A program made the translations under genes and the position numbers. Shown here one piece after another: positions 6,887 to 46,194 of a DNA stretch of 64,000 nt. The DNA is from Halorubrum salipaludis (lineage in GTDB: Archaea > Halobacteriota > Halobacteria > Halobacteriales > Haloferacaceae), in assembly GCF_002286985.1 (NCBI RefSeq), contig NZ_NSKC01000001.1, positions 62,001 through 126,000 of the forward strand. The letters are read 5' to 3'. The first letter of the stretch is position 1. Each line of letters opens with the position of its first letter. The notes below the pieces were generated by a model. That model was not told the DNA's origin. It did not search any database and saw only the letters and a list, made by a program, of their open reading frames with translations.

Positions 6887-7064
6887 GCGGTCGTTCCCAT
6901 TTTCGGTATCTCTCCGTTGGCAGTCTCTCGATAGCGTCTGCACTCCCTCCTCACCGAAGACCGTGCCTTGATCGATGGCGGGAGTGAGTGATGTGGATCG
7001 GTGGTGACGGGAGGATATTTAAAAGAACTGTGAGCGACGGCGACGATCGCTTATAAATGACGAC

Positions 7065-7360
7065 GCGGTGGCGCGTGCCGAGGAGCGCCCGGAGGGCGCG
7101 ACTCGCACGCGCGAGGGAGTCGCTGGCGCCTTATAAGGCGCCAGCGACAGGGCGAGAGCGAAGCTCTCGCTTGCAACCGGACGTAGTCCGGTGACGAGGC
7201 TGGGGAGGCGTGAGGTGCGGTGTTGTGCGGGGCGGGGTGGGACTCAAAGGGGCAGTCGCGAAGCGGTCGCAGGCGACGCAAGGACCACAGCGAGGGAGCG
7301 GCAGCGACCGAGCGAGGACCGCAGCGAGCGTGCGACCGCTTCGCGGCTGGGGCTTTGGAG
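7065..7360 (+). ncRNA. Structured repeat RNA element, copy B
   Basis: It begins GCGGTGGCGCGTGCC after TTATAAA at 7051-7057. About 100 nt, including a 30-nt palindrome at 7119-7148, are almost identical to copy A. The closing stem pairs 7253-7271 with 7331-7349: 18 Watson-Crick pairs plus one G-U, with a sequence different from copy A, so pairing is conserved by covariation. It ends CGGCTGGGGCTTTGGAG, followed by TTATAAAC at 7382. The flanks (about 6960-7050 and 7385-7465) resemble those of copy E, including an ATATTTAAAAG box upstream. Confidence 0.72.
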
Positions 7361-7498
7361 ATCTTCACCGCGTCATCGATCGCTTATAAACATCCACCAG
7401 CACCACCACAATCAGACTTATAAACAACACCTCTACCACCGTGCGAGACCCACTTCCGCCATCGCTCATCTGCTGGGGGTCCAATCGCGCCGCCGGGG

Positions 7499-13303: not shown

Positions 13304-13454
13304 TAGTCCCGGGCGGATTCGAACCGCCGTCAATGGCTGACTTCGGGCATCCGACGGGCGTCTCCGAAGAGACGAACCGTGATCGCGTCTCGACCGCGAA
13401 CGCGGACGGATTCCCTCCAAAGGCCATTATGATTGGCCACTACACCACGGGACT
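13304..13454 (-). tRNA. tRNA-Gln (TTG anticodon) with intron
   Basis: The acceptor arms AGTCCCG and CGGGACT pair perfectly with discriminator A. The T arm is GGCGGTTCGAATCCGCC. The anticodon loop reads CTTTGGA, giving TTG (Gln). Exon 1 is 13454-13417 and exon 2 is 13338-13304, giving a 73-nt mature tRNA. The 78-nt intron (13416-13339) sits after position 37, the usual site of bulge-helix-bulge introns; intron-containing tRNA-Gln(UUG) is known in Haloferax. Exon junctions were placed by eye. Confidence 0.88.
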
Positions 13455-24461: not shown

Positions 24462-24680
24462 CCGTTCAGATGCCCTTATGTATCACCCGGCCACACGTCC
24501 GGACATGGACGACCACTCCCACGAGCCCGATCCGGACAAGCGCGTGACCGCTCCCATGCAGTCGTTCGGCAGCCGCGAGGTCGGCATCGGCGCGGCCGTC
24601 ACGCTCGTCGGCCTGCTCGTCGCGTACGTCATCCCGTTCCTGTTCACGTTCTGAGCGATGCCGACGCTCGCGGGTGCGGT
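24462..24680. repeat. Duplicated segment, copy 1 (partner at about 25628-25845)
   Basis: A segment of roughly 215 bp starting CCGTTCAGATGCCCTT, containing a small membrane protein gene and its stop-proximal sequence, recurs near-identically at 25628-25845. The two direct copies bracket a three-gene toxin-antitoxin-like locus. Boundaries are approximate. Confidence 0.75.
24505..24654 (+). CDS. Small membrane protein, duplicate 1 (DUF7550-like)
   Basis: A 49-residue protein with a His/Asp-rich N-terminus (MDDHSHEPDPDKRVTAP) and one transmembrane helix (about 28-49, GAAVTLVGLLVAYVIPFLF). It differs from the copy at 25669 by one residue (Ser20 in place of Ala). The conserved sequence suggests selection, but the function is unknown. 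DUF7550 is suggested from memory. Confidence 0.72.
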   Translation: MDDHSHEPDPDKRVTAPMQSFGSREVGIGAAVTLVGLLVAYVIPFLFTF

Positions 24681-25550: not shown

Positions 25551-25668
25551 TATTACGTGCGCGGTTACATAAATGTGCATTCGAGCGGAGGCCGGACGTG
25601 TTCTCGCTCCCGAACCCGCCGATCGCTCCGTTCAGATGCCCTTCTGTGCCTCCGCACAACCCTCGAGC

Positions 25669-25818
25669 ATGGACGACCACTCTCACGAACCCGACCCGGA
25701 CAAGCGCGTGACCGCTCCCATGCAGGCGTTCGGCAGTCGCGAGGTCGGCATCGGCGCGGCCGTCACGCTCGTCGGCCTGCTCGTCGCGTACGTCATCCCG
25801 TTCCTCTTCACGTTCTGA
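25669..25818 (+). CDS. Small membrane protein, duplicate 2 (DUF7550-like)
   Basis: A 49-residue near-copy of the protein at 24505, with the same His/Asp-rich head and single C-terminal membrane helix. The upstream 16 bp (CCGTTCAGATGCCCTT) and the sequence after the stop are also shared, so the repeat is a DNA duplication, not only a gene family. Function is unknown. Confidence 0.72.
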   Translation: MDDHSHEPDPDKRVTAPMQAFGSREVGIGAAVTLVGLLVAYVIPFLFTF

Positions 25819-25869
25819 GCGACGCCGACGCTCGCTGTTTAAAAGACCCGACCGCACGCAGCGACTCGC

Positions 25870-35730: not shown

Positions 35731-35994
35731 GCGGTGGCGCGCGCCTCCGAGCGGCCGCTTCAAAGCGGCCGCGAGGAGCGCGTGCGAGGGACGCGGTGAG
35801 CGCTCGGAGAGCGCGAACCGCGAGGCTGGGGAGGAGTGAGGTGCGGTGCTGTGTGGGGCGGGGTGGGACTCAAAGGGGCAGCCGCGAGGCGGGCAGAGGC
35901 GACGTAAGCACCGCAACGAGGGAGCGAACGGAGTGAGCGACCGAGTGAGGAGCGCAGCGAGCGTCTGCCCGCCTCGCGGCTGGGGCTTTGGAGG
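35731..35994 (+). ncRNA. Structured repeat RNA element, copy D
   Basis: It begins GCGGTGGCGCGCGCC. Hairpin 1 is GCGGCCGCTT-CA-AAGCGGCCGC and the second stem is replaced by ACGCGGT...ACCGCG, both different from other copies but still paired. The shared block CGAGGCTGGGGAGGAGTG follows. The closing stem pairs 35879-35897 (CAGCCGCGAGGCGGGCAGA) with 35964-35982 at 19 of 19 positions. The inner part is the purine-rich AAGCACCGCAACGAGGGAGC block. No clear TATA box precedes it, unlike copies A, B, E and F. Its 3' block begins a 72-bp tandem array. Confidence 0.72.
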
Positions 35995-36209
35995 TCTCGT
36001 CCGCGTCGATCAGCGATTTATAAGCGAGCACGTCGTCGTATGGCCGAGCGGCTGGGGCTTTGGAGGTCTCGTCTGCGTCGATCAGCGGTTTATAAGCGAG
36101 CACGTCGTCGTATGGCCGAGCGGCTGGGGCTTAGGAGGTCTCGTCTGCGTCGATCAGCGGTTTATAAGCGAGCACGTCGTCGTATGGCCGAGCGGCTGGG
36201 CTTCAGGGA
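35977..36209 (+). repeat. 72-bp tandem array extending RNA copy D
   Basis: CGGCTGGGGC recurs at 35977, 36049 and 36121, and a diverged CGGCTGGGCTTC at 36193, each exactly 72 bp apart. Each unit contains CTTTGGAGGTCTCGT (CTTAGG in unit 3), GTCGATCAGCG, the TATA-like TTTATAAGCGAGC and TCGTCGTATGGCCGAG. There are no unique spacers, so this is not a CRISPR array. The unit has the same plan as the 57-bp array after copy F. Confidence 0.9.
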
Positions 36210-36305
36210 AGGCGTTCGCCGCGGCAGTAGGGCCTGATGAGTAATAGTCCGAGCTCGCGTCCAGTCGGGAACACGATTATACCGACTCCCTGCCCAGATC
36301 GACCC

Positions 36306-37118: not shown

Positions 37119-37140
37119 CCGCACCGCAAGGGGTTCGCGA

Positions 37141-37235
37141 CGAACCCGCGACGAACCCGCGACGAACCCGCGACGAACCCGCGACGAACCCGCGACGAAC
37201 CCGCGACGAACCCGCGACGAACCCGCGACGAACCG
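37141..37235. repeat. 11-bp tandem repeat (8.5 copies)
   Basis: CGAACCCGCGA is repeated eight times without a mismatch, then a partial ninth (CGAACCG). It lies between the stop of ubaA and the convergent zinc-ribbon gene. Since 11 is not a multiple of 3, it is not a protein repeat. It is a likely variable-number tandem repeat; a role in termination is possible but not shown. Confidence 0.92.
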
Positions 37236-40963: not shown

Positions 40964-41205
40964 GCTTCGGATAGGACACAGCACACACTCAGCCGTTCCG
41001 GCCGCGTACCGCCGTTCGAACACGCACGCTCGCGTTCCCCTGGTTTCGTTTTTTGGCTCTGTCGAATCCCTAGCGATTGATGTACTCTAGCAGTCGATTA
41101 GACATGGCGGCGATCGATAACGGGAGTAGGTAATGCAGATCAGTGGCGATGAGAGCATATTTAAAAGGAGTATGAGCGGGGACAACGATTGATTATAAAT
41201 GATCT

Positions 41206-41451
41206 GCGGTGGCGCGTGCCTGCGAGCGTGCCGCCGAAGGCGGCCGCGAGCAGCACCGCGCGAGGGAGTCGCTGGCGGCGACAGCCGCCAGCGACGAGGC
41301 TGGGGAGGCGTGAGGCGCGGTTGCGGAGCGGTCGGGAGGATCCAAAGGGGCAGCCGCGAGGACGAAGCTCGGCGTAGTAAGGACCGCAGCGAGCACCGCG
41401 AGCGAGGAGCGCAGCAAGCCGCGCGAGTCGTCGCGGCTGGAGCTTTGCAGG
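41206..41451 (+). ncRNA. Structured repeat RNA element, copy E
   Basis: It begins GCGGTGGCGCGTGCC after TTATAAA at 41194-41200. Hairpin 2 is GTCGCTGGCGGC-GACA-GCCGCCAGCGAC: stem length as in copies A and B but with a changed inner pair set and loop. The shared block GACGAGGCTGGGGAGG follows. The closing stem starts at 41351 (CAGCCGCGA against TCGCGGCTG) but is interrupted further in. The 3' block is CGGCTGGAGCTTTGCAGG. Flanks resemble those of copy B over about 90 bp upstream and 70 bp downstream. Confidence 0.68.
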
Positions 41452-41652
41452 TCTTCACCACAGTGCCGTCGCTCACGTAGATCCAGCCGACAGCAACACC
41501 ACTCTCTCACTAATAAACAATCACACCACAAACGTGCGAAGACCTACTCCCGATCTCGATCAAACGCATCGTTCGCCGATCAACTGCGCTACGACGGCGC
41601 CGCCGCTCGCGATTGATAAACGGAAGAAGTCGATCGGAGATCGCGGTCGGGC

Positions 41653-45666: not shown

Positions 45667-45928
45667 GCGGTGGCGCGTGCCTGCGAGGCCGCCCCGCGGC
45701 CGAGTAGCACGCGCGAGGGAGTCGGTCGCCGGAGCAAAGCGGAGGCGACCGACGAGGCTGGGGAGGTGTGAGGATGCGGTTGCGGTTGTTGTCGGGTGGG
45801 ACTCAAAGGGGCAGCCGCGAGGGCGGCGCAGGCGACGTAAGCACCGCAACGAGGGAGCGAACGGAGTGAGCGACCGAGTGAGGGGCGCAGCGAGCGTGCG
45901 CCGCCCTCGCGGCTGGGGCTTTGGCGGT
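45667..45928 (+). ncRNA. Structured repeat RNA element, copy F
   Basis: TATA box TTTATAA at 45652-45658 precedes GCGGTGGCGCGTGCC. Hairpin 1 arms are GGCCGC and GCGGCC; hairpin 2 is GTCGGTCGCC...GGCGACCGAC, again different in sequence but paired. The shared block GACGAGGCTGGGGAGG follows. The closing stem pairs 45812-45830 (CAGCCGCGAGGGCGGCGCA) with 45897-45915 at 19 of 19. The 3' block CGGCTGGGGCTTTGGCGG opens a 57-bp tandem array. Confidence 0.74.
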
Positions 45929-46194
45929 GTTCACCGTCGATCTGACAGCAACCATTTATAACCGAGCGGCTGGGGCTTTGGCGGTGTTCACCGTCGATCT
46001 GACAGCAACCATTTATAACCGAGCGGCTGGGGCTTTGGCGGTGTTCACCGTCGATCTGACAGCAACCATTTATAACCGAGCGGCTGGGGCTTTGGTGGTG
46101 TTCACCGTCGATCCGCCGTGAACCACTTATAACCTAGCGGCTGGGCCTTCGGAACTGGTCACCAGCGACCCGGTATCAGCTATTTATAAGCGAT
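45910..46194 (+). repeat. 57-bp tandem array extending RNA copy F
   Basis: CGGCTGGGGC recurs at 45910, 45967, 46024 and 46081, with a diverged CGGCTGGGCC at 46138, exactly 57 bp apart. Each unit contains CTTTGGCGGTGTTCACCG (TGGTGG in unit 4), GTCGATCTGACAGC or a variant, and the TATA-like ATTTATAACCGAG (ACTTATAACC in unit 4). The last unit again has TATTTATAAGCGA. It is built on the same plan as the 72-bp array after copy D, but the sequences between are different. Confidence 0.92.

Follow-up and report, generated by a model that had tools for sequence, protein, structure and literature searches.

The 57-bp tandem array at positions 45910-46194 of the window (the whole 64,000-nucleotide stretch analysed, from the 3.5-Mb genome of a Halorubrum-type haloarchaeon) was confirmed, and it is a satellite tail that occurs throughout the genus on a structured element found across the class. 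Our main reading, to which we give a probability of about 0.7, is that a folded, noncoding element present in many copies gave rise at its 3' end to this small satellite, by slippage or recombination, and that the blocks are weakly selected. The array ties a satellite to one strand of the closing helix in a folded repeat, and because one and the same body can be followed by anything from 0 to 6 extra strands, it offers a natural series for work on whether such repeats are transcribed, how their 3' ends are set, and how prokaryotic satellites are born.

The array and its host element

The array adjoins the 3' end of copy F, an approximately 258-nt copy of the element (Table 1). Blocks spaced by 57 bp start at 45910, 45967, 46024, 46081, and 46138, and TRF called positions 45909-46149 with period 57, 4.2 copies, and 95% matches. 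The four units plus a diverged last one that the first-pass annotation had placed behind copy F were confirmed by these block positions and the TRF call. When up to 3 mismatches were allowed, CGGCTGGGGCTTTGG matched the window 14 times versus 2.1 expected. Each unit combines the P3 closing helix's 3' strand with GGTGTTC, a spacer of variable sequence and, usually, a TATA-like box; after the block, the variable middle is followed by either the TATA-like box or GTAYRGCCGAG and then by GCGAGC. The first-pass annotation had regarded both the block and TTTATAA as shared parts. The block was indeed shared, but TTTATAA is not a fixed part, as many units have GTAYRGCCGAG in its place. A search for a hairpin within the unit gave partial GGNGGT/ACCGYC pairing, with positions 15-26 paired in only 30% and no covariation signal. 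Element and array sit in a convergent gap between two genes that, from sequence reading alone, we take to be SprT-like (plus strand) and CorC/CBS-type (minus strand).

Table 1. Positions of the array, its host element copy, and the 72-bp array in the window
Feature	Position	Strand	Description
TATA-like box TTTATAA	45652..45658	+	15 nt upstream of element start; read in sequence
Structured multicopy element, copy F	45667..45924	+	hairpin P1, hairpin P2, GAGGCTGGGGAGG linker, long hairpin P3
P3 closing helix, 5' strand	45804..45822	+	CAAAG GGG CAGCCGCGAGG
P3 closing helix, 3' strand (block 1)	45910..45924	+	CGGCTGGGGCTTTGG; segment repeated in array
Array unit 1, 57 bp	45910..45966	+	TTTATAA at 45955-45961; sequence and TRF
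Array unit 2	45967..46023	+	no difference from unit 1
Array unit 3	46024..46080	+	no difference from units 1 and 2
Array unit 4	46081..46137	+	substitutions mainly in second half; lower identity
Array unit 5 (last, diverged)	46138..46194	+	CGGCTGGGCCTTCGG ... TTTATAA
72-bp array behind copy D	35977..36210	+	three units and diverged block CGGCTGGGCTTCAGG

Copy F was characterised by an alignment of 29 own-genome copies and RNAalifold covariation on 26 of these; the fold of the 26 copies has three structured parts with strong covariation. A covariance model of the long 3' hairpin P3 (model R1) matched copy F at C1:107796-107924, which is window 45796-45924. In the P3 closing helix, CAAAG-GGG-CAGCCGCGAGG is paired with CCTCGCGGCTG-GGG-CTTTG, forming CAAAG/CUUUG and CAGCC(G)/(C)GGCUG pairs around a GGG/GGG internal loop, and the P3 tip is a run of 2-bp helices with GA/GA steps between them. 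All 10 scored closing pairs were formed in 97 of 98 elements.

A first search of the host genome for the element returned 42 matches. Model R1 returned 128 match rows, which come to about 120 distinct places once rows for the opposite strand of one place and rows at contig ends are allowed for. Six copies lie in the window, with P3 starts at 1911, 7237, 29580, 35863, 41335, and 45796. Of 116 genomes sampled across the class, 84 had R1 matches, as did 34 of the 45 genera. The class-wide P3 has 37 pairs, with 92% of cells paired and two-sided changes in 30 pairs, and column-shuffled alignments folded to -26 kcal/mol versus -84 kcal/mol for the real ones. Compensatory base changes in a conserved fold are those of a structured RNA, and single-stranded DNA could give the same covariation. 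A known Rfam family was rejected, as none scored above its gathering cut-off, and text searches of the literature for the element or array sequences or for a described family returned nothing relevant. The element family, class-wide in Halobacteria, present at about 120 places, and absent from Rfam, looks like a larger finding than the array and, with its strong class-wide covariation, merits attention itself.

Of 39 elements, 29 had a TATA-like box within 30 nt upstream, usually at a distance of 13-16 nt from the start. It is not claimed here as the promoter of an intact RNA, because archaeal spacing from this distance would put the transcription start inside P1. GGTGTT often follows the closing helix on its 3' side in other genera, even where no array is present. 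The linker within the element varies in length from 16 to 31 nt, whereas the length of the array unit is steadier. Perfect short hairpins (e.g., CAGAACGCTTCGCGTTCTG) are inserted in P1, P2, or P3 at 1990-2115 and at loci L192, L195, and L199, and the same modules recur across copies and genera. Another genus (G094) has pairs of P3 hairpins lying close together in head-to-head inverted orientation (C1:795543-795806 and C3:300609-300873; L236 and its neighbours).

Distribution and types of tails

A search for the tandem pattern in other haloarchaeal genomes had been proposed in the first-pass annotation, and it showed that the array is not unique to this genome. A two-unit query matched 49 of 52 genomes of the genus Halorubrum, and the exact tandem pattern was present at no fewer than 113 loci in named genomes, with array periods of 57 (190 of about 255), 54 (46), and a few others. 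Among the matches listed for this pattern, the titles were Halorubrum except for one uncultured archaeon assembly. The element precedes the array at 142 of 152 array loci, and most exceptions are at contig ends. The exact pattern favours conserved blocks, and the census was redone on elements picked by their body or P3 only. In this unbiased set, 63 of 98 Halorubrum elements had at least one extra block, with a first step of 57 in 43, and none of 98 shuffled flanks scored 10/14 or better. Over all steps, the period was 57 in 84 of 115.

In the host genome, where scoring was slightly looser than in the 98-element census, an extra block was found at 49 of 90 copies examined (shuffled flanks, 2.6%). 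The tail is dispensable for the element, because the other 41 of the 90 copies had no extra block. Outside Halorubrum, matches of 11/14 or better followed 7 of 81 elements compared to 0 of 162 control windows. Tails were present at 4 of 4 elements of genus G064, with a period of about 74-80 bp and without TTTATAA, and at 3 of 14 elements of genus G072. The tail block resembles the element's own 3' strand even where that strand deviates (L219, GCGTGGGCTTTC; L274).

At the orthologous locus, between the same two genes in other species of the genus, the number of extra blocks behind the element ranged from 0 to 4; some species had only a partial or body-deleted remnant, and others no element at all. 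The element is therefore old at the SprT-like/CorC-like locus and frequently lost, and the array length is labile. The units are head-to-tail, near-identical, and noncoding (TRF; negative coding test), and their number differs among relatives by 0 to 4 extra at this locus, as in a satellite.

The 72-bp array with which the first-pass annotation had compared the 57-bp one lies behind copy D and is real (TRF, 35977-36200), and the two arrays do share, as it had proposed, one repeated 3' block from one structured family. Its view that the two arose separately is not supported by the distribution. The two window arrays are not independent, because both tail types are common to many dispersed copies and mixed-period arrays ([72,72,57] and [69,57,57]) exist; the 72-bp tail is a dispersed subfamily. 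In the host genome, the 57-type stands behind 33 copies and the 72-type with its shortened relatives behind 16. A third class of 22 host-genome copies has a different 3' flank and weak terminal inverted repeats. Some tails end in this third-class flank, so that the array lies between the element body and that end. As regards the marks of a MITE, inverted flanks scored 17.3 versus 12.0 in one subclass and were weak in the 57- and 72-types, and no transposon was identified. In a comparison for exact empty sites with target duplication, the element was absent from the orthologous locus in several species, but the edges of the gap were not crisp. A subclass of copies (7000-7470 and 41100-41600; L007, L023, and L027) has the outer flank TATTTAAA / CTTATAAA with imperfect terminal inverted repeats GATCGATAGCGGGAGTGAGT / ACTCCCGCTATCGATC; these are possible end points of a mobile unit.

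Origin of the tail and probable constraint on its block

Slippage or recombination accounts for the form of the tail. Internal neighbour units are 95% identical, whereas the unit body after the last block is only 55% identical to its neighbour. The divergence of the last unit is as predicted for the edge of an array under slippage or unequal recombination, with a real but partial tendency to CTTC in addition. In the unbiased set of 63, T12>C (CTTT>CTTC) was carried by 21 last blocks versus 4 first blocks, and G2>A by 20 last versus 13 first blocks. The identical last-unit change reported in the first-pass annotation is present, in that the last block of both window arrays reads CGGCTGGGC followed by CTTC or TTC. 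The CTTC part is frequent in last blocks and so partly general, but the GGGG>GGGC change is found only in these two arrays when compared with the unbiased set. The earlier preference for function over slippage posed a false choice, since a run of identical units ending in a diverged one is just the pattern that slippage or unequal recombination produces; that the block decays more slowly than the spacer hints at constraint in addition.

In single-tail elements, identity across copies fell from 0.97 in block 1 to 0.80-0.83 in block 2, 0.49 in the spacer middle, and 0.28 in the sequence after it. For the TATA-like box between blocks 1 and 2, identity was 0.75-0.79. Within elements, the last and first blocks were 0.87 identical and the spacers 0.49. 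Tail detection uses the block itself and favours conserved blocks. When tails were detected by the GGTGTTCACCG motif in its place, 45 of 53 second blocks still reached 10/14 or better. Judged from these comparisons, weak selection on the block is likely, because tail blocks stay similar while spacers drift and the unit length is steadier than the linker; renewal by recombination and detection effects are the alternatives.

Those alternatives are the substance of a neutral satellite, in which slippage at the element's 3' end produced units that have no role, and block conservation reflects frequent renewal and detection bias. We regard this as quite possible, although short of even odds. Edge divergence with internal homogeneity is the classic slippage pattern, and the many tail-less copies in the host genome are in keeping with it. 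Renewal is not visible in single-tail elements, yet their second blocks are far better kept than the spacer middle and the sequence beyond; by our estimate, the block distance is about 6 times smaller than the spacer distance, compared to an expected factor of about 2 with a frozen block 1. Under the selected-satellite reading, the block would first have been duplicated downstream to give a second direct repeat. Units would then be added, removed, and homogenised at each locus as the 14-22-bp blocks slip during replication or recombine unequally, with the outermost unit left to decay. Less certainly, the blocks may be under weak purifying selection as part of a functional 3' module for RNA 3'-end formation or factor binding, and extra block copies might act as spare 3' modules. 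The first extra block may itself be an element copy with a deleted body, as a stretch with a TATA sequence is common to leader and unit and copies lacking the body occur at the orthologous locus (L177 and L184); this is put as a possibility because the own-leader signal was modest (24.2 versus 22.5).

It is unlikely that the element is a class-wide family of large structured haloarchaeal RNAs, absent from Rfam and with more than a hundred copies in some genomes, whose tandem 3' strands are functional spare or competing 3' ends, with array length tuning 3'-end formation or folding for each copy. Distinctly unlikely is an exchange of strands in the closing helix, whereby each unit's CGGCUGGGGCUUUG in a read-through RNA would pair with the single 5' strand. 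Of 63 second blocks, 34 are able to form the full set of 10 scored closing pairs with the 5' strand of their own element, and permuting the 5' strands made the pairing slightly worse (P about 0.01), but local duplication also predicts such own-strand tracking. Moreover, the commonest tail changes (T12>C and G2>A) often give A-C and C-A mismatches with the own 5' strand, which counts against selection for this pairing. Tandem promoters, with each TTTATAA as a TATA box and the array multiplying the promoter, are very unlikely. The box is kept between blocks 1 and 2, and the 56-58-bp class I intergenic repeats of halovirus HF2 are proven promoters (PMC8707807), but GTAYRGCCGAG replaces the box in many units and the tailed genus G064 lacks it. 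A promoter array for the next gene was rejected, as only 47 of 146 downstream genes run in the same direction and a convergent arrangement is the commonest, as at 45910-46194. That the array encodes a repeated peptide is extremely improbable. Its periods (54, 57, 60, 63, and 72) are multiples of three in 246 of 255 cases and two frames are open in most units, but the multiple-of-three bias stems from two dominant lengths. In no frame did conservation depend on codon position (0.64-0.75 bits), and stops interrupt either of the two largely open frames in about 15-19% of the 57-bp units; a coding array was rejected on these grounds. A CRISPR was also rejected, since the spacers are identical within the array and neighbours are 95% identical.

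Comparison with known repeats and other features of the window

Haloquadratum has mobile repeats without a transposase, namely MITEs, PATEs, and SMRs (PMC3119063). Like these, the element is short, noncoding, palindrome-rich, multicopy, intergenic, and haloarchaeal, and core deletions are possible (PMC3119063). Going by the descriptions of those repeats, the element differs in being one large folded body with class-wide covariation and a tandem 3' strand, in having no demonstrated insertion, and in having terminal inverted repeats in a subset only. Bacterial REP/BIME-type stem-loop families (PMC2267715) are similarly dispersed, intergenic, folding, and often at gene 3' ends. In contrast, the element is archaeal, longer, and multi-hairpin, and its tandem part is one helix strand rather than whole palindromes.

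In a survey of prokaryotic satellites, noncoding dispersed ones were rare, and only Leptospira interrogans and Methanocella conradii were named (PMC6749651). The satellites of these two species resemble the arrays in being dispersed families of short noncoding tandem repeats, but those described here belong to the 3' end of a single structured element. The HF2 class I repeats are like the array units in length, haloarchaeal setting, and TATA-like box; they differ in having an unrelated motif (TCTTTAAGTC) and in being viral, dispersed single copies (PMC8707807). The array had no match in phage records, and an HF2-type viral repeat was rejected on this ground and because the downstream gene is usually not codirectional.

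Three further features were observed in the window. An 11-bp unit, CGCGACGAACC, is repeated in nine perfect copies at 37136-37234, and a 168-nt direct repeat with 96% identity is present at 24504-24671 and 25668-25835, 1164 bp apart. A tRNA match on the minus strand at 13304-13454 spans 151 nt, and the tRNA gene is therefore probably intron-bearing.
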